Positions 7,926 through 58,794 of a stretch of DNA of 64,000 nt are shown piece after piece (within the stretch, counting starts at the first letter, position 1; each line of letters opens with the position of its first letter). The notes under the pieces are model-generated. The model was not told the origin of the DNA. It saw nothing but the letters and a program-made list of their open reading frames with translations, and did no database searches. The position numbers were made by a program, and so were the translations under genes. The stretch is from Anaeromyxobacter soli. Lineage in GTDB: Bacteria; Myxococcota; Myxococcia; Myxococcales; Anaeromyxobacteraceae. Where the stretch lies: assembly GCF_022808855.1 (NCBI RefSeq), contig NZ_JAKZLF010000010.1, positions 62,001 to 126,000 on the forward strand, given 5' to 3'.

Positions 7926-8951
7926 ACGAGCTCCTCCGCAGGATGCTGTTCCTCCCCGAGCAGGCGTCGGACTACGCGCGCCAGGTCGACGGGCTCCACT
8001 ACTTCATCATCATCACCACGATGATCGCCGCCGCGGGCGTGTTCGCGACCGCGATCTTCTTCTTCGTCCGGTACCGCCGCCGCGCGGACACCGATCTCAC
8101 CCCGCACGTCGCCCCGCGCACGATCCACGAGGTCGTCTTCGTGGGCCTGCCGCTCGGTCTGTTCCTCGTGTGGTTCGCGATCGGCTTCCCGCAGTACGCG
8201 AAGCTGTCGCTCCCGCCCAAGGACGCGATGGACGTCTACGTCCAGGGCAAGAAGTGGATGTGGAAGTTCGCCTATCCGGGCGGGCCGAACGCGATCGACA
8301 CGCTGCGCGTCCCGGTGGGGCGCCCGGTGCGGCTCCTCATCACCTCGCGTGACGTGATCCACTCGTTCTACGTCCCCGCGCTGCGGGTGAAGATGGACGC
8401 GCTCCCGGGCCGCTACACGCAGTCGTGGTTCAAGGCGGAGAAGCCCGGGCGCTACGAGATCTTCTGCGCCGAGTACTGCGGCCTGGGCCACTCCGCCATG
8501 CTCGGCGAGCTCGTCGTCATGCCGCAGGAGGAGTTCGACACCTGGATCGCGGAGCAGCGCCGGGGGGCGAACGCCGTCGCCCAGGACGCGGGGCCGTCGG
8601 GGGAGCGGGCGCTGCCCGCCGCCAACGTCGCCGAGGAGGGGCGCCGGATCGCCTCGGAGCAGGGGTGCATGAAGTGCCACAGCGTGGACGGCACGCGGCA
8701 CATCGGCCCGACCTGGGTGGACCTCTACCTCCGCCAGGAGAAGCTCAAGGACGGCAAGAGCGTCGTCGCGGACGAGGGCTACCTCACGAAATCGATGATG
8801 GACCCCGCGGCGGACATCGTCGCCGGCTACCAGAACGTGATGCCCACCTACCAGGGCAAGCTCTCTCCGCCCGAGGTCGCGGCGGTCGTCGAGTACATCA
8901 AGACCCTCAAGACGCAGGCGGTCCGCTCCGGTCCGTCGGAAGGCCCGGTCT

Positions 8952-8977
<26 letters not shown>
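7922..8977 (+). CDS. coxB: Cytochrome c oxidase subunit II with fused cytochrome c (caa3)
   Basis: A 351-residue CoxB with two transmembrane helices (about 27-49 and 70-90), a cupredoxin CuA domain and a C-terminal cytochrome c domain. The CuA ligands are visible: His147, then Cys182, Cys186, His190 and Met193 in CAEYCGLGHSAM. The haem motif CMKCH spans 249-253, with a probable Met ligand in NVMPTYQG. The fused cytochrome makes this a caa3-type oxidase able to take electrons directly from ACIII. No signal peptide or lipobox is seen. The last 26 bases overlap the coxA start. Confidence 0.96.
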
Positions 8978-10608
<1,631 letters not shown>

Positions 10609-45709: not shown

Positions 45710-47401
45710 TCAGTCCAGGGACCGCGTCGGATCCCGCGCGCCGAGCCGCCACGTGAGCCGGTCCGGCGCTACGCCGCGAACCTCGACGAGCCCACCGTGT
45801 ACTCCCCGCAGGTGGTGGGCGGCGCAGAGCGATGCGAGGTTCGCCGGGTCGTCACCGCCGCCGCGCGAGCGATAGACGACGTGGTGCGCGTGCACGGCCG
45901 CCCGGCTGCAACCCGGCACCTGGCAGAGTCCGCCGTCGCGCGCGAGGGCCCGCCGCTGCGGCGTGCTCCGCTCCGCGAGCGCGGGTTTCCAGGTCGAGAT
46001 GAAGTGCTCCGCCATCCGCTCGAGGCACTCCGCGGGCGTGAGCCAGCGGTCGGCCGCTGCGCGGGCCGCCCGGAACGCTTCGTCGAGGAGGCGCCCGACC
46101 CGCCGAGGCACGCGCAGGTCGAGCTCGGCCCGCGCGCACATCTGCGCCTCCTGCTCCGCCTCGATCTCCCGGCGCAGCGCGATGCAGGTCGTACCCTCCG
46201 CCCGGCGGATCCAGTCCTCGGTGGTGAGATCGTCCGCGACCTCCGCCACGAGCCGCGCCTGCTCGTAGGACACGCGCCCGTCGCGCATCGCCTGCTCGAG
46301 CGCGGGGAGCGCGTAGAGCCTACGCTCCAGCTGGACCCGCTGCTGCACCGTGCGCGTAGCCATTCCGAGCCGCTCCTCGCAGTAGTGGCCGAACGAGGCG
46401 AAACCCATGTCGCGCCACAGTCGCAGCGTCCGGAGCAGCAGGCCGAGGTGCCCGACGAGCGCGTCCCAGCGATCGCGCATCGCCGCGAGCCGCCTCAGCT
46501 CCTCGTCGACGCGCACGTCCGCGCCGCCGTCGAGCTCGGCGCTCACCTCCGCCTCGACCGGAGCGACCGCTCCGAGGAACGCCCAGCGGCCATACTCCTC
46601 CTCGAGCCCCGCCCTCGCCGCCTCGAACCATTCTGCGGCCGGCCCGCGCAGGACGCCTTCGTCCGTGACCTCGTCCCCGCCGTCCGAGAGCGCTTCCACG
46701 GGATGGGCGCCGAGGAACTCCTCGCAGATCGCCTCGAGCCGCTGCCACCTCGGCGCGGTCGCTCCGAGAACCTTGCCCGCGAGCGCCATCGCCTCGTCGA
46801 GCTTCGCGCGACCCGCGGGCGTGAGCTGGAGGGACACGCGCTCCCGCGGCTCCTCGTCCGCCTTCGCCTCGGCGGCTGCTTCGGCCCGCACCGCCGCCGC
46901 GAGCGCGCGCACCGTCTCGGTGCGGGCGATCGAGACCCAGCGCGCCTCCGCCTCACCGCGGGCAACGGGGAGGACCGTCTCGGCCTTGCGCGCGCTCACC
47001 TCGCCGCGCCGGACCGCGTCGGCGAGGAGCGGGCGGTCGCGGAGCGCCCGCGCGAGCCTCACGAGCTTCTGCGCCGTGCTGGCCGCGATGCCCAGCCGCT
47101 CGCGCGCGTAGTCACCGACGCTCGCGTACCCGAACCGCATCGCACCGTCCCGGTCGGCGAGCGCCGCGAGCCCGCGGCCGATGGCGATCTCGAGCGCGCC
47201 GTGCCCACGCGCGACGCGGCTGAGGAGCCGGTCGATGAGGAGCGCCGCCTCGTCCCGCAGGATGCCCTTCCGCTCGTGCGGCGGCGGCGGCTCGAGCAGC
47301 CACGCCTCCGCCGCGAGCGCGTCCAGCGCGGCCGCCGAGGCGATCGCGAGAGGAGCGGGAGGGCTCAGGGGCACGACGTCCATCGAGTGAACCCATACCA
47401 T
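45710..47401 (-). CDS. HNH endonuclease-domain protein (DUF222-like N-terminus)
   Basis: A 563-residue protein. A long helical N-terminal region with two similar blocks (GYASVGDYARERLGIAAST and GFASFGHYCEERLGMATRT) suggests an internal duplication. The C-terminal HNH nuclease motif is RDGGLCQVPGC ... AHHVVYRSRGGGDDPANLAS ... AAHH. Such proteins resemble the multi-copy DUF222/13E12 HNH families, thought to be selfish or mobile-element linked. The start is uncertain (ATG 47401 or 47383; no good RBS). A decayed copy lies ~1.2 kb away at 44331-44560. Confidence 0.85.
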   Translation of the reverse strand: MVWVHSMDVVPLSPPAPLAIASAAALDALAAEAWLLEPPPPHERKGILRDEAALLIDRLLSRVARGHGALEIAIGRGLAALADRDGAMRFGYASVGDYARERLGIAASTAQKLVRLARALRDRPLLADAVRRGEVSARKAETVLPVARGEAEARWVSIARTETVRALAAAVRAEAAAEAKADEEPRERVSLQLTPAGRAKLDEAMALAGKVLGATAPRWQRLEAICEEFLGAHPVEALSDGGDEVTDEGVLRGPAAEWFEAARAGLEEEYGRWAFLGAVAPVEAEVSAELDGGADVRVDEELRRLAAMRDRWDALVGHLGLLLRTLRLWRDMGFASFGHYCEERLGMATRTVQQRVQLERRLYALPALEQAMRDGRVSYEQARLVAEVADDLTTEDWIRRAEGTTCIALRREIEAEQEAQMCARAELDLRVPRRVGRLLDEAFRAARAAADRWLTPAECLERMAEHFISTWKPALAERSTPQRRALARDGGLCQVPGCSRAAVHAHHVVYRSRGGGDDPANLASLCAAHHLRGVHGGLVEVRGVAPDRLTWRLGARDPTRSLD

Positions 47402-47454
47402 CTGTGTCTGACGGTCGGGCGGACTCCAGCGCGACGGTGGGTGAATATCAGACG

Positions 47455-47490
47455 TGACCGCGACCCCGACCGCGACCCCGACCACGACGA
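47455..47490 (+). repeat. GACCGCGACCCC tandem repeat upstream of the HNH gene
   Basis: About three copies of a 12-base unit (gaccgcgacccc) in tandem, 5' of the HNH start. A matching run lies at 28975-29000, and a shortened version at the HNH relic (44530-44552). Confidence 0.6.
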
Positions 47491-47641
47491 CCGACGCCGA
47501 GCCTTCCACCCACCCCGGCTCCAGCGCGCCGCCCCCACGTGGCGGGACCTCGCGCCCGGAGGCGGGCCACTGGACGCGGGAGGCACCTCCCCGACCCACG
47601 GACCGCAGGTAACGCGGATTTGAACCCGCTTCCGGGCCGAC

Positions 47642-49501: not shown

Positions 49502-52090
49502 CTAGTACTCGGCGCGCAGGCCGAAGGAGGGGAAGAGCGGGAGGCCGGAGTACCAGCCGCGCCGCGAGTAGTCGAAGCTGTACGCGGCGGCCTCGGGGTT
49601 CTCACGGTTGGTGACGTTCTGGACCTCCAGGTAGGCCGCGAACGTCCAGGTGCGGGCCGTCCACTTCTTGTCGACGCGGAGGTCGAGCTGGAAGAACGGG
49701 GGCATGCGCCCGGTGAGCGCGCCGGTCTGGATCGGCTGGTAGCGGTCGGCGTCGGCGTCGTACACGGCGGCGCGGACCGGCTCGTAGGGGTTTCCGCTCG
49801 TGTAGCGGGCGCGGAACCCGGCGGAGAGGCCCCGCCAGACCTCGGGCAGCTCGACGGTGCCCACCGCGACCACGTTGTGCGGCTGGTCGTAGGCGTCTCC
49901 CTCGCTGTCGAGCCGGCCGCCCGCGACGGACTCGCCCCGCTCCGCGCGCGAGAGCGAGTAGGAGATCCAGCCGAAGAACCGGCCGTCGGGATCCCAGCGC
50001 AGGAGCAGCTCCGCGCCGTAGGACCGCCCCGTCCCCGCGCTCCGGTAGCGCTCGGAGACGAGCTGGCCATCCCGGGTGATCACGGCGTCGGAGGGGAGGG
50101 CGAGGTCGAACAGGCGCTTGTAGTAGAGCTGCGCGTCGAGGAGCAGCCGCGGCAGGAGCCGCTGCTCCGCGCCGAGCGAGTACTGCCAGGCGCCCTCCTC
50201 GCGGAGGTCGGGGTTGCCGAACTCCTCCGTGACGTACGGGAACGGCGGCGCCTGGTGATAGAGGCCGACCGCGCCCTTGAGCGCGGTCCCGGGCCTGAGC
50301 TGCCAGCGGACCGCGAGGCGCGGGTCCACCCAGGAGAGGTTCGCGAGCGCGCGGTGCACGTCCGCGCGCACGCCCGGGACGACGAAGAGCCCGTCGACCG
50401 GCTCGAGGGTCGCCTCGACGAACGCGCCCGCCTCGAGCCCGTCGATGGTGGCGGCGTAGCGGCGGGTCTCGGCGTTCGGGTTCGGGACCTGACCGGGCGG
50501 GAGGATCGGCGGCGCGTCCACCTCGATCCTGACCCGCGGATACCACTGCCCGTCCACGCCCGTGACGAGCTTCACCCGCGGCGTGAGCTCGTGGTTCACC
50601 TCGGCGCGAAAGTGCGTGCTCCAGAGCTCCTGGCGCATCCGGAACAGCTCGTCGGCGTCGATGTCCATGTCCTGCCAGCCACCGCCGAGCGCGAGCCTGA
50701 GCCGGGTCGCCTCGCTCGCGCGGTGATCCCAGCGGAGCCCGGCCCGGTAGAAGCGGGTGCCGTACTCGAGGAAGTCGAGGTCCTCGAGCGACTGATCGTC
50801 CTCGACGCCCGTGAGGACCATCCGGTCGTCCGAGCCGAACACGTCGAGACGGACGGTGTCGTCGGCGGTCGCCTTCCACGCGGCCTTCGCCTGCAGGTCG
50901 TAGTAGCGGGGCGCGGTGCTCACGCCCGGCGCGTCGTCCATCGACTCGAGCGCGCGGGTCACCACCGCGTCCGCGTAGGAGCGCCGGGCCGCGATGGCGA
51001 TCCCGAGATCCTCGCGCGGCCGGCCCTCGTAGAGCGCGGTCGCGTGGTACAGGTTCACGTCCGCGAGCGTGTGGGTCCGCTCGCCGGGATCGCGCGTGAC
51101 GAGGTTCACGCGGCCGCCGATCGCCCGCCCCGAGCGGACGCCGAAGTTGCCCGCCTCGAACTCCACGTCCTTCAGGAGCTCGGACGAGTAGACGCTGGTG
51201 AGCCCGCCGAAGTGGAACACCGCGGGCACCTCCTCGCCGTCCACGTACACGCGGGTGTCGCGGGCGTTGCCGCCGCGGACGATCATCTCGCCGCTCAGGA
51301 AGGTGCGGGCCATGCCGGGGAGGTTCTGGATGACCTTCACCGCGTCGCCGGAGGCGCCCGCGACGCGCCGGATCTCCCCGGCCGCGATGGCGACGTGCGA
51401 GACCTCCTTCTCCTCCCGCTCGCCCACCACGACCGCCTCGTACTCGCCCTCCGCGGCGGTCCGCTGGAGCCAGTAGGTCACCTGGGTCGCCTTGCCGGGC
51501 TCGACGGTCTCCTCCGACTCGAGGCGGGCGTGGTCGACGTCCGTCACGACCACCTGCACCGCCCCGTCCGCCACCCCGGCGAGCGCGAACCGGCCCTCGC
51601 CGTCGGTGTGGGTGAGCTGGCCGCCCGCCTCCACCATCGCGCCCGCGACGGGCAGCCGGGTGCCGCGCTCGAGCACCCGGCCGAGGAGGTTCAGCGGCGG
51701 CGGCGCGGGGGCCGCGGGCGGCGCGGCCAGCGCGAAGGTGAAGCGATACTCGATCCGCACCGGCGCGGGCGCCCCGTCGATCTCCGCGGGGGAGAAGCGG
51801 AGCTTCCGCGCGGCGGCGACCGCGGCCTCGTCGAACCCCTGCCCGGCGGGGCCGGTCACCACCGCGTCGGTGACCTCGCCGGTCTCCGAGATCTCGAGCT
51901 CGAGGGTCACGACGCCGGTCAGCCCCGCCGCGCGGGCGGCCTCCGGGTACTCGGGCTCGGCGGGCTCGACCACCGCCGGAGCGCGCGTGAGGACGCCGGT
52001 CTCCGCCGGTGGCGTCTCGGCGCGAGCGGGGCGGGCGCTCCCGAGGAGGAGGCCGAGCAGGGCGAGCGCGGTGGCGAGCGAGCGGCGCAT
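49502..52090 (-). CDS. TonB-dependent receptor with N-terminal TonB-C-like domain
   Basis: An 862-residue outer-membrane receptor. A signal peptide (1 to about 24) is followed by a TonB C-terminal-type domain (about 38-122: EYPEAARAAGLTGVVTLELE ... GFDEAAVAAARKLRFSPAE), then a carboxypeptidase-regulatory-like beta domain (about 134-210), a plug (EAVVVGER ... DAVKVIQNLPGM ... VRGGNARDTRVYVDG) and a ~22-strand barrel ending FGLRAEY with a terminal aromatic residue. ATG 52090 is preceded by GGAG at good spacing; GTG 52099 overlaps the tonB stop. The substrate is unknown. Confidence 0.93.
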   Translation of the reverse strand: MRRSLATALALLGLLLGSARPARAETPPAETGVLTRAPAVVEPAEPEYPEAARAAGLTGVVTLELEISETGEVTDAVVTGPAGQGFDEAAVAAARKLRFSPAEIDGAPAPVRIEYRFTFALAAPPAAPAPPPLNLLGRVLERGTRLPVAGAMVEAGGQLTHTDGEGRFALAGVADGAVQVVVTDVDHARLESEETVEPGKATQVTYWLQRTAAEGEYEAVVVGEREEKEVSHVAIAAGEIRRVAGASGDAVKVIQNLPGMARTFLSGEMIVRGGNARDTRVYVDGEEVPAVFHFGGLTSVYSSELLKDVEFEAGNFGVRSGRAIGGRVNLVTRDPGERTHTLADVNLYHATALYEGRPREDLGIAIAARRSYADAVVTRALESMDDAPGVSTAPRYYDLQAKAAWKATADDTVRLDVFGSDDRMVLTGVEDDQSLEDLDFLEYGTRFYRAGLRWDHRASEATRLRLALGGGWQDMDIDADELFRMRQELWSTHFRAEVNHELTPRVKLVTGVDGQWYPRVRIEVDAPPILPPGQVPNPNAETRRYAATIDGLEAGAFVEATLEPVDGLFVVPGVRADVHRALANLSWVDPRLAVRWQLRPGTALKGAVGLYHQAPPFPYVTEEFGNPDLREEGAWQYSLGAEQRLLPRLLLDAQLYYKRLFDLALPSDAVITRDGQLVSERYRSAGTGRSYGAELLLRWDPDGRFFGWISYSLSRAERGESVAGGRLDSEGDAYDQPHNVVAVGTVELPEVWRGLSAGFRARYTSGNPYEPVRAAVYDADADRYQPIQTGALTGRMPPFFQLDLRVDKKWTARTWTFAAYLEVQNVTNRENPEAAAYSFDYSRRGWYSGLPLFPSFGLRAEY

Positions 52091-52095
52091 GAGGT

Positions 52096-52836
52096 TCACT
52101 CCAGGACGAAGGTGTAGGTGAAGCGGATCTCGGTCTCGACGGCCTCGCCCTCGAGCAGGGGAGGCGTGAAGCGGAAGCGGAGCGCGGCGGCCCGGGCGGC
52201 CTCGCCGAGGGCGGCGCCCGGCGCGGAGAGGAGGCGCGCCGCCGCGACCCGGCCCTCGGCGTCGATCCGCAGGAGCAGCACGACCTGCCCCTCGAGCCCC
52301 TCCCGCCGGGCCTCCGGGGGATACGGGATCTCCGGCCGCTCGAGGAGGCGGGGCTGCGCGGAGAGCCGGGCGGGCGCGGAGCGCGGGGCGGCGTACGGCT
52401 TCACCGAGGCGGGATCGGCGGCGGTCTCCGAGGCCCTGCCGTGGAGCGTGTTCCCGACGCCCACCGCGAAGCCGCCGCCGGTCGCGGTCGAGGAGAGCGA
52501 CACTCCGACGCGGGGGACCGCGCGCGCCGGCGCGGCGGGCGGCGGCGCTTCGTTCGGGGGCGGCGGTGGAGGCGGCTCGGCCGGAGGTGGCGGCAGCCTC
52601 GCGATCGCGACCCGGCGCGGCGCAGGCCGCTCCGACGGTGGAGGAGGCGTCGGGGCGGGGGCGGGCGGCGGAGGGGCGGCCTCGAACTCGACCACCACGG
52701 GCGCGGCCCTTGCGGCCTGACGCGGCTCGAGGCGACCGGCCCAGGCGAACCCGCCGGCGTGGAGCGCCAGCGAGGCCAGCGCCATCGCGGCGAGCGTGCG
52801 GCCCCGCGGCGGACCGTCGGAAGGCGCCGGGGTCAC
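52096..52836 (-). CDS. tonB: Energy transducer TonB
   Basis: A 246-residue TonB: one N-terminal helix (about 14-34), a Pro-rich periplasmic spacer (about 50-105), and a C-terminal TonB domain with PEIPYPPEARREGLEGQVVL and RFRFTPPLLEGEAVETEIRF. It couples ExbBD proton flow to the receptor encoded next. The start is a GTG whose GTGA overlaps the exbD stop. Confidence 0.93.
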   Translation of the reverse strand: MTPAPSDGPPRGRTLAAMALASLALHAGGFAWAGRLEPRQAARAAPVVVEFEAAPPPPAPAPTPPPPSERPAPRRVAIARLPPPPAEPPPPPPPNEAPPPAAPARAVPRVGVSLSSTATGGGFAVGVGNTLHGRASETAADPASVKPYAAPRSAPARLSAQPRLLERPEIPYPPEARREGLEGQVVLLLRIDAEGRVAAARLLSAPGAALGEAARAAALRFRFTPPLLEGEAVETEIRFTYTFVLE

Positions 52837-53258
52837 GGCGCGCCTTCCCCCGACGCGTCGTGCTCGATCTGGATCGCGAAGCGGGTGAGCCCCTCGCTCT
52901 TCACGAGATCGATCACGGACACCACCTCGCCGTGAGGCACGGCCCGGTCCGCGCCGATGAGCGCCCGCGCGTCGGCGCTCCGCGCGAGCGCCGCGCGCAC
53001 GGCGGCGCGGGCCTCGGCGCGGCCGACGGGCCTTCCGTCGAGGAAGAGCTTCCCGTCCCGATCGAGCGTGAACGCGAGGGTCGGGCCGACGGTCTCGCCG
53101 CCGCTGGCGGCGCGGGGCAGGTCGACCTCGATGCTCTCCTTCACGATGTAGGAGGCGGTGACCATGAAGATGATGAGGAGGACGAGGGTGATGTCGACGA
53201 GGGGCGTCACGTTGATGCCGGTGATCGCCTCGTCGCTGCCGTTCGAGTGGGCGGCCAT
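52833..53258 (-). CDS. exbD: ExbD/TolR biopolymer transporter
   Basis: A 141-residue protein with a single N-terminal helix containing the proton-carrying Asp in NVTPLVDITLVLLIIFMV, the ExbD/TolR hallmark, followed by a periplasmic domain with GRPVGRAEARAAVRAA and IGADRAVPHGEVVSVID. ATG 53258 gives a normal-length protein; GGAG lies 8 bases upstream. It forms the motor with ExbB. Confidence 0.94.
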   Translation of the reverse strand: MAAHSNGSDEAITGINVTPLVDITLVLLIIFMVTASYIVKESIEVDLPRAASGGETVGPTLAFTLDRDGKLFLDGRPVGRAEARAAVRAALARSADARALIGADRAVPHGEVVSVIDLVKSEGLTRFAIQIEHDASGEGAP

Positions 53259-53287
53259 GGTGGGCTCCGGTGCGCTCGCGGCCGCCG

Positions 53288-53986
53288 CTAGGCGGCGCCC
53301 TTCGACTCGTGGGGCTCGGGGCGCCGCGCGGACCTTCCGTGGTCGAGCCGGGCTCGGGCCGCGGCGCGGACGTCGTCGTGCTCGAGGTGCGACGCGAGGG
53401 CGTGGCCGATCGCCTCGGCGCGCGTGATGAGCGTGCGCAGCCAGCGCTGGAAGCCGTTGAACGCGACGACCGCCGGGATGGCCACGAAGATGCCGACCGC
53501 GGTCGCGACGAGCGCCTCCGAGATGCCGGACATCACCGCCGCCGCGCCGGCGCCCTTCGGGCCGCCGACGGCGAGGTCGGAGAAGGCCCGGATGATCCCG
53601 ACCACCGTGCCGAAGAGGCCGAGGAAGGGGGCGTTGTTGCCGAGCGTGCCGAGAAAGGAGAGCCCCCGCTCGTAGCCGAGGCGGCGGTCCGCGATGGTGC
53701 AGGCCACCGCCTCCTGCACCGCGGCGGGGCCGCCGCCGGCGGCGTCGAGCGCCGCCCGCGCCACCTCCGCCTCGAGGCCGCGGCGGCCCTCGATGCGGGC
53801 CCGCGCCTCCTCGAGCCGCCCGTTCATGAGGAGGGTGAGGAGGTCCGGAGAGGTGCGGCGGCGGAGGGCGAAGTACAGGGCCCGCTCGAGGATGACCGTG
53901 ACCGAGGCGGCGGAGAGGGCGACGAGGAGCAGCATCACCCACTCGGCGCCGGCGCGCGTGAAGAGCTCGAAGAGGGACTTCGTCAT
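53288..53986 (-). CDS. exbB: ExbB/TolQ/MotA proton channel
   Basis: A 232-residue protein with three hydrophobic helices (about 15-35, 120-145 and 160-182). The conserved core GLSFLGTLGNNAPFLGLFGT followed by VVGIIRAFSDL and the IPAVVAFN segment identify ExbB/TolQ. It is the first gene of the exbB-exbD-tonB-receptor-lipoprotein operon. ~250 bases separate it from the divergent repeat-protein gene. Confidence 0.94.
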   Translation of the reverse strand: MTKSLFELFTRAGAEWVMLLLVALSAASVTVILERALYFALRRRTSPDLLTLLMNGRLEEARARIEGRRGLEAEVARAALDAAGGGPAAVQEAVACTIADRRLGYERGLSFLGTLGNNAPFLGLFGTVVGIIRAFSDLAVGGPKGAGAAAVMSGISEALVATAVGIFVAIPAVVAFNGFQRWLRTLITRAEAIGHALASHLEHDDVRAAARARLDHGRSARRPEPHESKGAA

Positions 53987-54234
53987 GGGTGACGCTCCGT
54001 TGACCGCGAGAGTGCGGCGCTCGTGTTGTGCGAGGGAACACCGCGGCGCGGAGATCGCGCTACCGCCCCCTCGCCGAGGCGGCGCGGAGCATGGCGGCGG
54101 CAGGTTGCCCCGATCTGGTCGGAGCGTGAAGAAATGTGAATCGTCCGCGCCGCGGTAGCGCGCGCGGCAGGCAGCGGTGTTCCTCCTTCCGACCCCGCCG
54201 ACCGCCCCTCGGCCACGGAAGAAGGACGACGCCC

Positions 54235-55317
54235 ATGCGGAACCCGCTTCGCACCACCCTCGCCGCGCTCGCGGCGGCCGTGCCCGCCCTGGCGCTCGCC
54301 GGCGCGGCGGTCCCGGAGCCCCCCGCGGCCGCCCCGACCGCGCTCCGCGTGGTCCCCGTGGACCTGTCTCTCGTCCCGCCGCTCAGCCTGAACGGTGAGG
54401 GGCGGGTGGAGAACCACCTCTCGATCGGCGTGGTGGCCCGCTCCACCGTCCTGCGCGGCCTGGCGCTCGCGCCGGTGCACCTCGCCGACGAGGACGTCTC
54501 GGGCGCGCAGGTGACCTGGGCCGCGGCCAGCGCGGGCGGGGTCGTGCGCGGCGTGCAGCTCGCGACCGTCACCACGGTGGCGCGAGATCTCCGCGGCCTC
54601 CAGGCGTCGCAGATCGTGAACGTGGTCCGCGGCGGCGGGGAGGGCGTCCAGCTCGGCGGCGCGGCCAACGTCGCGCGACGCCTCGACGGCCTCCAGGCGG
54701 CGGCGGTCAACGTCGCCGGCGGGGTGCGCGGGGTGCAGCTCGCCGTGGTGAACGTGGGCGGCGAGGTGAGCGGGACGCAGCTCGGGCTCGTGAACGTGGC
54801 CCGCCGCGTGCGCGGCGCGCAGGTCGGGCTCGTGAACCTCGCCGAGGAGGCGGAGGGCTCGGTGGGCGTCCTCGCGCTCGTGCGGAACGGCCGCCACGAG
54901 GTGGAGCTCTACGCGACCGAGCTCACGCCGCTCGCCGCTGGCGTGCGGCTCGGCGGGCGGCGCGCCTACGGCGTCCTCGGGGCGGGCGTCCAGCCCGACC
55001 CGCAGGAGCGCTCGGGCAAGACGCTCTCCGCCCTGGGCGGCGGCGCCGGCGTCGGGTTCGAGCCGGCGCAGCGCCTCGCGCTCGACCTGGATCTCGTCGC
55101 GCAGGCGGTCTCGCTCGACGGCACCCCCGAGGCGGTGCTCGGGGTCCTCCGCGCGGTGGCAGCCTACCGGCTCACCGAGTGGATGGGGGTCCTCGCCGGC
55201 CCGACGGCGAACGTGCTCGTCTCGGACGAGGACCAGCCCGACCTGCACCTCGGCTGGAAGCTCGGCGGCCGCCACGCGCGCGTGTGGGTGGGCTTCGTCG
55301 CGGGAGTGCGGATCTGA
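54235..55317 (+). CDS. Surface-repeat protein (LA_2272-like repeats)
   Basis: A 360-residue exported protein. After the signal peptide (1 to about 24), a VPVDLSLVPPLSLNGEG block leads to repeats of about 16-18 residues of the form V-x-G-x-Q-x-G-x-V-N-V (about 85-205), reminiscent of the LA_2272 surface-repeat family. A C-terminal beta-rich domain follows (about 215-360). It is a clear paralogue of the C-terminal half of the caspase-like protein at 56689. ATG 54235 is chosen for its signal peptide. Function unknown. Confidence 0.85.
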   Translation: MRNPLRTTLAALAAAVPALALAGAAVPEPPAAAPTALRVVPVDLSLVPPLSLNGEGRVENHLSIGVVARSTVLRGLALAPVHLADEDVSGAQVTWAAASAGGVVRGVQLATVTTVARDLRGLQASQIVNVVRGGGEGVQLGGAANVARRLDGLQAAAVNVAGGVRGVQLAVVNVGGEVSGTQLGLVNVARRVRGAQVGLVNLAEEAEGSVGVLALVRNGRHEVELYATELTPLAAGVRLGGRRAYGVLGAGVQPDPQERSGKTLSALGGGAGVGFEPAQRLALDLDLVAQAVSLDGTPEAVLGVLRAVAAYRLTEWMGVLAGPTANVLVSDEDQPDLHLGWKLGGRHARVWVGFVAGVRI

Positions 55318-55401: not shown

Positions 55402-55905
55402 GTGGCGGTCGACGTCGACGCGTACTACCGGGACCTCGCGCCGATGGTCCTGCGCCGCTGCCGCCGCCTCCTCCGTGACGAGGAGAGGGCCGTGGACGCC
55501 ATGCACGACACGTTCGTGAACCTGCTCCGGGCGGAGGAGCGGCTCCGCGACGAGGCCCCCGCGTCGCTCCTCCTCCGCATCGCCACCCGCGTCTGCCTGA
55601 ACCTGCTCCGCACGGAGCGGCGCCGGCCGGAGGACCGGGACGAGGCCGCGCTCCTCGCCATCGCGGCGGCGGACGAGCCCGAGGCGCGCTCGCTGTCGCG
55701 CCTCGTCGTCGGACGGCTGCTCGGGCGCGAGCAGGAGTCCACCCGGGTGATGGCGGTGCTCCACTACGTGGACGGCCTGACGCTCGAGGAGGTCGGTCGC
55801 GAGGTGGGGCTCACGGCCGCCGCGGTCCGCAAGCGGCTCGGCGGGCTCCGGCGGCGCGCCGTGGAGCAGGCCGCCGAGGCGCCCACCCAGGAGGTGCAGC
55901 GATGA
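55402..55905 (+). CDS. ECF-type RNA polymerase sigma factor
   Basis: A 167-residue sigma-70 family ECF protein. Region 2 runs from VDAYYRDLAPMVLRRCRRLL through DAMHDTFVNLLR with ASLLLRIATRVCLNLLR, and region 4 contains LHYVDGLTLEEVGREVGLTAAAVRKRL, a helix-turn-helix. The start is GTG with GAGAGGGGAG upstream. The next gene overlaps by four bases (ATGA) and is an anti-sigma-like membrane protein, followed by the caspase-like protease. Confidence 0.92.
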   Translation: MAVDVDAYYRDLAPMVLRRCRRLLRDEERAVDAMHDTFVNLLRAEERLRDEAPASLLLRIATRVCLNLLRTERRRPEDRDEAALLAIAAADEPEARSLSRLVVGRLLGREQESTRVMAVLHYVDGLTLEEVGREVGLTAAAVRKRLGGLRRRAVEQAAEAPTQEVQR

Positions 55906-56678
55906 GCCCGGATCGCGTTCCCGACTACCTGGTCGAGCGGCTCCACGCCGGCGACCTCCCGCCCGACGAGGCCGCCCGCGTACGGGGCCGCCTCGAGGCG
56001 GAGAAGGGCGTGCGCCGGCTCGAGGCGCTCGCGCGCGACGCCGCGGCGTTCCGCGAGGCTCACCCGCCTGGCCCCGCGCTCGGGGAGATCCGCCGCCGCG
56101 CGGCGCTCGCCGCGAGCGCGCCGCGGCCCTCCCGGCGGCGGCCGCTGCTGCTCGTCCCCATCGCGGCAGCGGTGGCGGTGGCGTCAGCGCTCGTGCTGCA
56201 CGTCATCCCGTCCGGCCTTCTCACGCCGCGCTCCGCCATCGAGGACACCCGCCTCAAGGGCCTCGCGCCGCGCCTCGAGGTGCACCGCAGCCGGCCGGAC
56301 GCCGGGCCCGAGGAGCTCCGCGACGGCGCGGCGGCGCGGGCGGGAGACCTCCTGCAGCTCTCGTACGTGGCGGCGGGCAGGCCGTTCGGGGCGGTGGTCT
56401 CGGTGGACGGCCGCGGGATCGTGACGCTCCACTGGCCCGAGGAGGGCGGCCCCGCCGCCCCGCTCGCGGGGACGGGCGCGGTGCCGCTCCCCCACGCCTA
56501 CCTCCTCGACGACGCGCCCGGGTTCGAGCGGTTCTTCCTCGTGACGGGCGCCGCCGCCTTCGACTCCGCGACGGCGGTGGAGGCCGCGCGACGGCTGGCC
56601 GCCTCCGGCCGCGCCCGCGAGGATCCCCTCGTCCTCCCCGCGGGCCTCGAGCAGCACGCCCTCCTCCTCGTGAAGTGA
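55902..56678 (+). CDS. Probable membrane anti-sigma factor
   Basis: A 258-residue protein with a helical cytoplasmic N-terminus (VERLHAGDLPPDEAARVRGR, typical of anti-sigma domains but without the HxxxCxxC zinc site), one transmembrane helix (about 80-102) and a periplasmic domain of ~150 residues (AGDLLQLSYVAAGRPFGAVV ... RFFLVTGAAAF). The latter part resembles DUF4384-like ligand domains. Position after and overlapping an ECF sigma gene makes the anti-sigma role a strong inference. Confidence 0.8.
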   Translation: MSPDRVPDYLVERLHAGDLPPDEAARVRGRLEAEKGVRRLEALARDAAAFREAHPPGPALGEIRRRAALAASAPRPSRRRPLLLVPIAAAVAVASALVLHVIPSGLLTPRSAIEDTRLKGLAPRLEVHRSRPDAGPEELRDGAAARAGDLLQLSYVAAGRPFGAVVSVDGRGIVTLHWPEEGGPAAPLAGTGAVPLPHAYLLDDAPGFERFFLVTGAAAFDSATAVEAARRLAASGRAREDPLVLPAGLEQHALLLVK

Positions 56679-56688
56679 GAGCCCCGAC

Positions 56689-58794
56689 ATGATTCGACCC
56701 GTCCTCGCGCTCGCCGCCGTCCTCCTCGCCGGCGCCGCCGCCGCACAGGGGCCGTCCCGCGCCGAGCCGCCCGGCGCGGTGCGCCGGCTCGCCCTCGTGG
56801 CGGGCGCCAACGACGGCGGCCCCGCGCGCCCGCGGCTCCGCTACGCGATCTCCGACGCGGAGCGGGTCGCGCGGGTGCTGCAGCAGATGGGCGGCGTCGC
56901 CGGCGAGGACACGATCGTGCTCCTCGACCCGGGCGAGGCCAGCCTGCGCGCGGCCCTCGAGGAGCTCCGCTCGCGCGTGAGGCGCGCGCGCGCCGGCGGG
57001 CGCACGGAGGTGCTCTTCTACTACTCCGGCCACTCCGACGAGGAGGGGCTGCTCCTGCGCGGCGCGCGCGTCCCGTATGGAGAGCTCAGGCGGTGGCTCA
57101 CGGAGCTCGGCGCCGACATCCGCATCGCGATCCTCGACTCGTGCTCGTCGGGCTCCTTCACCCGCGGGAAGGGAGGCGCCCGCGCCGCGCCGTTCCTGGT
57201 GGACGCCTCGTCGCGGGTGAGCGGTCAGGTGATCCTGACGTCCAGCTCGGCCGACGAGGCCTCCCAGGAGTCGGACCGGGTCGGCGCGTCGTTCTTCACC
57301 CACGCCCTCGTCACCGGCCTGCGCGGCGCGGCCGACGCGAGCCAGGACGGCAAGGTCACGCTCTCGGAGGTCTACCAGTTCGCGTTCGACGAGACGCTCG
57401 CGCGGACGGAGCGGACCCGCGGCGGCCCGCAGCACGCGGTCTGGGACATCCAGCTCGTCGGCGCGGGCGAGGTGGTGCTCACGGATCTGCGCGGCTCGGG
57501 CGCGACGCTCGTCCTGCCGGCCGCGGCGGCGGGCCGGTTCTTCGTGCGCGACTCCGGCGAGCGGCTCGTCGCGGAGCTGCGCAAGCACCCCGGCCGCCCG
57601 CTGGAGCTGGCCCTCGACCCGGGCGGTTACCGCGTCTCCCGCGAGGAGGACGGGCGCCTCGTGGAGGCGCGCGTCGCGCTCACCCAGGGCGGCCGGACCG
57701 AGCTCGCCGGCGCGGGCTTCGCCGCGGTGCCGCGGGAGCTGACGGCGCTCCGCGGCGACGGGGTGGAGGAGCTCGCGCGCGTGCCGGTGGACCTCTCGAT
57801 CTTCCCGCCCGTGTCGTTCAACGGCGATCGCTACGTCGTGAACCGCCTCCAGCTCGGCCTCATCGCCTCGCGCACGACCCGGCTGCGCGGGATCGGGCTC
57901 GCGCCGGTGCTCTGGGCGGACGAGGACGTGGTGGGCGGCTTCTTCTCGTACATCGGGAGCTCCGCGCGCGGCCGCGTCACCGGCGTGCAGGTGGGGATGG
58001 TCGCGAACGTGGCCGGCTCGCTCCGGGGCGTGCAGCTCACCCAGGGCCTGAACCTGGTGCGGGGCGACGTCGTCGGCTGGCAGCACTCCAGCGTGAGCTG
58101 GGCGGCGGGAGCGGTGACCGGGCTCCAGTCCGCGCTCGTGGGCTACGCCGGGTCCGTCTCGGGGGCGCAGCTCGCGCTCGCCTCGGTGTCGGGCGAGGTG
58201 CACGGCGCGCAGATCGGGCTCGTGAACGTGGGGAGCGGCGTGCGCGGCGTGCAGGTCGGGCTCGTGAACGTGGGCGGCCACGTCCGCGGGGCGCAGCTCG
58301 GGCTCGTGAACGTCGCCGACGGCCTGGACGGCGTGTCGCTCCGGCTCCTCCCCATCGTCCGCGGCGGCGAGCACAAGCTCCTCGTCCTGGGCGACGAGAA
58401 CGGGATCCTCTCCGCCGGGCTCCTGCTCGGGAGCCGCGCGTTCCACACGATCCTCTCCGCCGGCGCGCAGCGCGCCGACAGCGGCGGGCGTCTCTGGTCC
58501 GGCTTCGGGCTCGGCGCGCACCAGGCCCGCGGCCGGTTCCTGCTGGACGTGGATCTCCTGAGCCAGCAGGCGGTGGACGCGGGCGCGAACGTGCTCGCCA
58601 CGGCGCGGGTGCTCGCCGGGTGGCAGGTCACGCGGAGCGTGGCGGTGGTGGCGGGGCCGAGCGCGAGCCTGTTCTGGGCGGAGGAGGGCTTCCGCCCGGG
58701 CCTGGGCGGCCTGCTCGAGCACGACCTCGGCGCGGACGGCGGCCGGCGGGCCTGGCTGGGCTTCGCGGCGGGGCTGCGGCTCGGGCCGCCGTGA
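56689..58794 (+). CDS. Secreted caspase-like protease with surface-repeat C-terminus
   Basis: A 701-residue exported protein. Signal peptide (1 to about 19). A caspase/metacaspase-type C14 domain (about 30-255) has its dyad visible: His115 in YYSGHSDEEG and Cys152 in ILDSCSSGSF. A PEGA-like beta domain follows (about 262-345). A repeat region (about 428-548) has ~16-residue units such as RGVQVGLVNVGG and HGAQIGLVNV, then a beta-rich C-terminal domain. Residues 365-700 are paralogous to the protein at 54235. It begins 10 bases after the anti-sigma gene. Surface or periplasmic proteolysis under ECF control is inferred; the substrate is unknown. Confidence 0.9.
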   Translation: MIRPVLALAAVLLAGAAAAQGPSRAEPPGAVRRLALVAGANDGGPARPRLRYAISDAERVARVLQQMGGVAGEDTIVLLDPGEASLRAALEELRSRVRRARAGGRTEVLFYYSGHSDEEGLLLRGARVPYGELRRWLTELGADIRIAILDSCSSGSFTRGKGGARAAPFLVDASSRVSGQVILTSSSADEASQESDRVGASFFTHALVTGLRGAADASQDGKVTLSEVYQFAFDETLARTERTRGGPQHAVWDIQLVGAGEVVLTDLRGSGATLVLPAAAAGRFFVRDSGERLVAELRKHPGRPLELALDPGGYRVSREEDGRLVEARVALTQGGRTELAGAGFAAVPRELTALRGDGVEELARVPVDLSIFPPVSFNGDRYVVNRLQLGLIASRTTRLRGIGLAPVLWADEDVVGGFFSYIGSSARGRVTGVQVGMVANVAGSLRGVQLTQGLNLVRGDVVGWQHSSVSWAAGAVTGLQSALVGYAGSVSGAQLALASVSGEVHGAQIGLVNVGSGVRGVQVGLVNVGGHVRGAQLGLVNVADGLDGVSLRLLPIVRGGEHKLLVLGDENGILSAGLLLGSRAFHTILSAGAQRADSGGRLWSGFGLGAHQARGRFLLDVDLLSQQAVDAGANVLATARVLAGWQVTRSVAVVAGPSASLFWAEEGFRPGLGGLLEHDLGADGGRRAWLGFAAGLRLGPP

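Follow-up and report, generated by a model that had tools for sequence, protein, structure and literature searches.

We analysed a 64,000-nucleotide stretch of Anaeromyxobacter soli DNA (contig NZ_JAKZLF010000010.1, positions 62,001 to 126,000; hereafter the window), taken from a 5.3-Mb, high-GC source genome (label G000), and describe an operon that encodes an extracytoplasmic function (ECF) sigma factor, a membrane anti-sigma protein, and an exported caspase-fold protease. With a probability of roughly 0.55, we propose that these proteins form a circuit with positive feedback: the caspase would release itself from a tether and cut the anti-sigma protein, and the sigma factor would drive expression of the caspase and of Ton genes. 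The proposal is built on gene order, domains, catalytic residues, a promoter motif with its targets, and a [K/R]G motif that occurs both in the anti-sigma protein and in the caspase, all of which are seen directly in the sequence. The locus comprises the following features, given with window position and strand.

49502..52099, reverse strand: TonB-dependent receptor-like protein with N-terminal TonB_C, CarboxypepD_reg, plug, and beta-barrel (Pfam); last gene of the divergent operon
52096..52836, reverse strand: TonB (TonB_C; Pfam E 9e-16)
52833..53246, reverse strand: ExbD, start codon approximate (Pfam E 2e-26)
53288..53986, reverse strand: ExbB/TolQ-type proton channel (Pfam E 4e-30); first gene of the divergent operon
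54035..54063, reverse strand: predicted ECF promoter GTAGCGC-N15-GTGTTCC of the ExbB-ExbD-TonB-receptor operon, about 48 bp 5' of the exbB ATG
54155..54183, forward strand: predicted ECF promoter GTAGCGC-N15-GTGTTCC of the LA_2272-sigma-anti-sigma-caspase operon, 51 bp 5' of the LA_2272 ATG
54235..55317, forward strand: exported stand-alone LA_2272-repeat protein (NCBIfam), a paralogue of the caspase tail with about 40 to 44% identity
55402..55905, forward strand: ECF sigma factor (Pfam Sigma70_r2, E 2e-11; NCBIfam sigma70-ECF, 6e-14, over cut-off)
55902..56678, forward strand: membrane anti-sigma protein with helical N-terminus, transmembrane segment, linker, and DUF4384-like beta ectodomain
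56256..56261, forward strand: codons K119-G120 (within R117-x-K119-G120), a candidate cleavage site where the linker borders on the ectodomain
56689..58794, forward strand: exported caspase-fold protease with LA_2272/beta-barrel tail (Pfam, NCBIfam, AlphaFold2, Foldseek)
57031..57033, forward strand: codon of catalytic His115 (invariant in 98/98)
57142..57144, forward strand: codon of catalytic Cys152, within D150-S-C152 (invariant in 98/98)
57751..57756, forward strand: codons R355-G356, candidate self-cleavage site in a disordered tether before the barrel
57835..58791, forward strand: caspase tail of LA_2272 repeats followed by long beta strands resembling outer-membrane barrels (NCBIfam; AlphaFold2 at low confidence; Foldseek)

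The sequence-only reading had recognised three tightly packed genes for an ECF sigma factor, a membrane anti-sigma protein devoid of the zinc site, and an exported C14 protease with the catalytic pair His115/Cys152, and the analysis confirms this. The sigma factor consists of regions 2 and 4 only and scores over the TIGR02937 cut-off, which places it among the ECF sigma factors; its GTG start is backed by orthologue identity beginning at residue 1. The sigma stop and anti-sigma start overlap by 4 bp (ATGA), and 10 bp separate the anti-sigma stop from the caspase start. While the genes stand as first placed, the unit is predicted to extend beyond the trio, with the stand-alone LA_2272 gene (54235-55317) upstream of the sigma gene and the same promoter motif in front of the divergent ExbB-ExbD-TonB-receptor operon (49502-53986).

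The three-gene order was sought in other genomes by scanning one genome per species with a caspase alignment and keeping the best 80 loci. According to their titles, these belong to Myxococcota, many Treponema and other Spirochaetota, Fibrobacter, and single metagenome-assembled genomes of Acidobacteria and Gammaproteobacteria, the names of the latter assemblies being possibly wrong; Anaeromyxobacter terrae is the nearest named relative among the fetched loci (89% over the caspase). One relative (L036) with an assembly gap, a run of N at 8100-9000 within the anti-sigma gene, was left out of the counts. A sigma match adjoins the caspase in 65 of the 80 loci, and nine of the remaining 15 reach a contig end, so that this gene order is far beyond chance; the anti-sigma gene, too, is a neighbour of the caspase in most of the 80, which include records of Myxococcota, Spirochaetota, Fibrobacterota, and others. 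Neither the window anti-sigma protein nor the lineage to which it belongs across phyla (79 of 91 sequences) has the HxxxCxxC zinc ligands, whereas all 12 paralogous trios of the family have kept them. Other arrangements were also seen. A second trio of the source genome, located outside the window (L002, G000:C13:8882-12427), combines sigma factor, zinc-type anti-sigma protein, and caspase and has no GT[GA]ACA promoter of the kind described below. In Myxococcus (L230, L236, and similar loci) the place of the caspase behind a sigma-anti-sigma pair is taken by a stand-alone gene of the LA_2272 type, and barrel-tailed caspases of Myxococcus occur elsewhere, beside a TonB receptor or beside a second anti-sigma gene that has no sigma gene. 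Loci L196-L199 contain a conserved zinc-type pair of sigma factor and DUF4384 anti-sigma protein that has neither a caspase nor [K/R]G; in L197, a gene for a c-type-cytochrome-like protein follows the pair.

Upstream of low-GC sigma operons, the dyad GTAAC-N18-TGTT and its shifted forms were found in 14 of 37 sequences, compared with at most 5 in shuffles, and a weight matrix led to the ECF-type consensus GT[GA]ACA[CG]-N15-GTGTT. With this matrix, 55 of the 63 regions upstream of operons scored over the 99% level of shuffles, and the spacing was 15 in 55 of 59. As the matrix had been trained on the first sequences, making this result partly circular, a second set was scored: 44 of its 47 zinc-less operons had the promoter within 200 bp, compared with none of the 38 loci that are zinc-type or have no caspase. 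All 12 anti-sigma-caspase operons devoid of a sigma gene have kept it, and in a locus of permuted order with the caspase first (L147), it precedes the caspase. In the window, no promoter match is found directly 5' of the sigma gene; the site sits 5' of the LA_2272 gene. The promoter marks the lineage of the window-type sigma factor, and we infer that it is recognised by the sigma factor itself.

The window contains two copies of the pattern, divergently oriented, against 0.03 expected, and G005 and G008, two further genomes of the genus, have kept the pair of sites. Genome-wide, the count in G000 is not above that of a reversed-pattern control (4 versus 6); the case rests on site position and conservation. 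Three of the four genome-wide sites of Treponema ruminis precede the sigma-anti-sigma-caspase operon, a TonB receptor gene, and an ExbB-ExbD-ExbD-TonB cluster, respectively; further sites lie 5' of ExbB-ExbD-TonB in Hyalangium, of one LA_2272 gene each in Corallococcus and Archangium, and, again in Corallococcus, of a receptor gene. Ton genes are present within a few kilobases of 18 of the 80 caspase loci, compared with none of the 12 paralogous trios. We hold autoregulation combined with a Ton regulon to be highly probable. Pattern hits in Corallococcus, Hyalangium, and Archangium near genes for a desaturase, an esterase, an S41 peptidase, and a beta-lactamase-like protein were not taken as part of the regulon, because they occur in single genomes and the reversed-pattern control gives some hits, too. 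In T. ruminis, a MATE-type exporter gene immediately follows the TonB cluster (L382:2344-3738).

It had been suggested that the protease is either the output of the sigma factor or, as its input, the enzyme that cleaves the anti-sigma protein. The output role is now well supported, since T. ruminis shows the same regulon and a lineage-specific promoter heads the operon in several phyla and persists in the sigma-less operons. The accompanying notion of an envelope-stress circuit is too narrow for the predicted regulon, which, with its TonB/ExbBD/TonB-receptor/LA_2272 set, comes nearer to cell-surface signalling. An induced caspase might also serve as a shut-off device that ends the response by cutting the receptor or further products of the regulon, in keeping with the prediction that it shares its promoter type with the receptor and Ton genes; this would leave the [K/R]G motif of the anti-sigma protein without a role, and we regard it as very improbable.

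The AlphaFold2 model of the anti-sigma protein (mean predicted local distance difference test [pLDDT] of 86) features four N-terminal helices, then a membrane helix (residues 85-101), a linker predicted to be disordered (103-118), and a beta ectodomain that is modelled well (124-257); the membrane helix is the only one, and the hydropathy peak starts at residue 81. The protein aligns with zf-HC2 paralogues, and its helical N-terminus is a candidate cytoplasmic sigma-binding domain of the class I anti-sigma type. Identity as a zinc-binding class I anti-sigma factor (ZAS/zf-HC2) was rejected for the window protein on account of its lack of HxxxCxxC. Among 17 aligned homologues, eight match DUF4384 (PF14326, best 5e-8) and eight match zf-HC2. 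The window protein on its own gave no Pfam match, the FecR domain included; it falls below the reach of the DUF4384 model (not at E 0.1), yet aligns over the whole domain. Foldseek returned no match for the ectodomain at E 0.001, and hence no sensor function is derived from its fold.

The caspase begins with a hydrophobic, signal-like sequence, and its Pfam match is Peptidase_C14 (E 8e-12) rather than CHAT. Of the two repeat types attributed to it at first, the LA_2272-like one scores over the NCBIfam cut-off; the PEGA-like one was discarded, as Pfam detects no PEGA domain in 16 relatives and only a beta-rich segment (263-338) is present. Like H115 and C152, the residues D150 and D56 are the same in all 98 relatives. 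For the protease part, the top Foldseek match is the Candida glabrata metacaspase 7qp1, with caspase-7 also among the matches; the C-terminal 140 residues are similar to OmpA, NspA, OprF, and designed transmembrane barrels. The AlphaFold2 model has a mean pLDDT of 66, with low confidence in the LA_2272 repeat part. Because the barrel-like tail is taken from a low-confidence model, it is by inference that we place the caspase at the outer membrane, to which the C-terminal LA_2272/beta-barrel tail probably anchors its tether. A preference for basic P1 residues has been reported for both eukaryotic metacaspases and prokaryotic orthocaspases (PMC9622860, PMC6426788), and the acidic S1 pocket described for TbMCA2 has Asp95 and Asp211 (PMC4357240). 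By our own residue matching, D56 and D150 of the window caspase would fit these two aspartates.

The linker of the anti-sigma protein varies in length and sequence, yet has [K/R]G at its end. The motif was surveyed in 180 DUF4384 proteins, 153 with an adjacent caspase and 27 without. It is present in 152 of the 153 caspase-adjacent anti-sigma proteins, the sole exception being a contig-truncated row (152 of 152 complete sequences). Where no caspase is adjacent, 18 of 27 proteins have kept it, and their genomes (G015 included) encode a caspase elsewhere. The nine DUF4384 proteins that have lost it include none with an adjacent caspase, and L200-L202 among them are also devoid of a nearby sigma gene; three genomes that encode KG-less proteins (G002, G006, and G020) gave no caspase match at E 1e-30. 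On the caspase side, the tether column of R355-G356 is basic in 78 and glycine in 78 of 79 LA-type caspases, with one gap, and the same tether of zinc-type caspases has K in 26 of 29 and G in 29 of 29. The stand-alone LA_2272 paralogue of the window has no [R/K]G motif before its repeats. Since the motif matches in both tethers and is lost in caspase-less loci, the input role gains circumstantial support. We slightly favour the view that the caspase cuts its own tether, and would put cleavage of the anti-sigma protein at even odds.

The motif bears on two further explanations. In one, the caspase is output only: the sigma factor would control it as a protease that acts on other substrates in the envelope or at the surface, cleavage of the anti-sigma protein would fall to an enzyme of the DegS or Prc type, and [K/R]G would be structural or a coincidence of two tethers. 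The promoter does place the caspase in the regulon, the promoter-less orphan receptor-caspase loci of Myxococcus suggest that the enzyme is useful apart from an adjacent sigma gene, and FecR-type anti-sigma proteins are processed by Prc and RseP (PMC9249621). We nevertheless consider this account unlikely, as it explains neither the conservation of [K/R]G at the linker edge and in the caspase tether of several subfamilies nor its loss in caspase-less relatives. Less probable still is a third, unrelated protease that reads [K/R]G in both tethers and releases caspase and anti-sigma protein alike, the caspase being a co-substrate and not the trigger. Although both motifs occupy comparable tether positions, relatives with the caspase fold have basic P1 specificity themselves, the aspartates matched to the S1 pocket do not vary, and the genomes that keep KG at a distance do have a caspase.

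In the positive-feedback circuit that we prefer, the anti-sigma protein would keep the sigma factor at the inner membrane in the resting state, while the exported caspase would be tethered, probably at the outer membrane, via its C-terminal tail. An envelope signal, with the DUF4384 ectodomain, the barrel, and the TonB receptor as possible sensors, would activate the caspase, which would then cleave both in its tether, at R355-G356, and in the anti-sigma protein, at K119-G120, a short way outside the inner membrane. The remaining stub could be cleared by an intramembrane protease of the M50 type, which would set the sigma factor free to act at GT[GA]ACA-N15-GTGTT promoters, yielding more LA_2272 protein, sigma factor, anti-sigma protein, caspase, and ExbB-ExbD-TonB-receptor. 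As M50 (RseP-family) proteases are encoded in the source genome, the caspase would replace DegS or Prc and not RseP, contrary to the sequence-only reading, which had it stand in for both DegS and RseP. A more far-reaching form, in which a sigma pathway shared across phyla has the caspase as its dedicated site-1 protease, with self-release from an outer-membrane barrel, shedding of the ectodomain at [R/K]-G, and induction of its own operon and TonB uptake, seems to us to fall a little short of even odds.

Several observations weigh against the circuit. The promoter motif was not found at the orphan receptor-caspase loci of Myxococcus, and G001, G005, and G016, which encode KG-less proteins, also encode other caspases. 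The link between motif loss and caspase absence is based on roughly four losses in the tree, two of them forced; it is not significant after phylogenetic correction, in a test that is underpowered, and is taken as suggestive. The [K/R]G motif could be structural or the site of another protease. Finally, the AlphaFold2 model of the tail has low confidence, and a protease tethered to the outer membrane may, unless released, fall short of a site 18 residues beyond the inner membrane.

Operons of sigma factors and metacaspases have been reported from Myxococcus xanthus, Anaeromyxobacter, Haliangium, Sorangium, Ralstonia, and Fibrobacter (Asplund-Samuelsson et al. 2012, PMC3501461). They represent the same kind of sigma-caspase operon, and relatives of the window operon are very likely among them; the part of that report considered here gives the co-occurrence and no anti-sigma protein, DUF4384, promoter, Ton regulon, or cleavage motif. 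In the type III-E CRISPR system Csx29/Csx30/CASP-sigma (PMC10028731), a caspase-related protease likewise cuts an ECF sigma inhibitor to control transcription. However, Csx29 is a cytoplasmic, RNA-activated TPR-CHAT protein acting with Cas7-11, whereas the window caspase is exported and barrel-tailed and would cleave a membrane anti-sigma protein. The nearest analogue of a TonB-linked sigma factor is FecI-FecR-FecA (PMC9249621), which has an ECF sigma factor, a membrane regulator, and a TonB receptor in common with the window and involves periplasmic and then intramembrane proteolysis by Prc and RseP. The window system differs by a DUF4384-type ectodomain without a Pfam FecR hit, by the caspase in the operon, and by a receptor that carries TonB_C and CarboxypepD_reg at its N-terminus and, according to Pfam, no signalling domain, which sets it apart from the FecI/FecR type. 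Regulated proteolysis of a membrane anti-sigma protein, as in E. coli sigmaE-RseA-DegS-RseP, is proposed for the window, too, but the site-1 protease would be a cysteine caspase from the sigma factor's own operon instead of a PDZ serine protease. For ECF54, with its CHAT, subtilase, or carboxypeptidase neighbours, proteolytic control by a caspase-related protease has also been proposed (PMC8999054); that group is described as having no anti-sigma factor, whereas in the window one is present and conserved. In the open-access literature, we found no description of the circuit, of its promoter or Ton regulon, or of the cut-site pairing.

For an exported bacterial caspase, a relative of the cell-death enzymes of animals, the window offers a concrete candidate role defined by K119-G120 in the neighbour, R355-G356 in the enzyme itself, the promoter, and a regulon common to myxobacteria and treponemes, with the operon itself also present in fibrobacters. 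If correct, the circuit would bring a caspase-type trigger into the envelope proteolysis of anti-sigma proteins, next to the Csx29-Csx30 case of the cytoplasm, and tie it to energised outer-membrane uptake.

Elsewhere in the window, positions 45710-47599 encode a protein with DUF222 and an HNH endonuclease domain.

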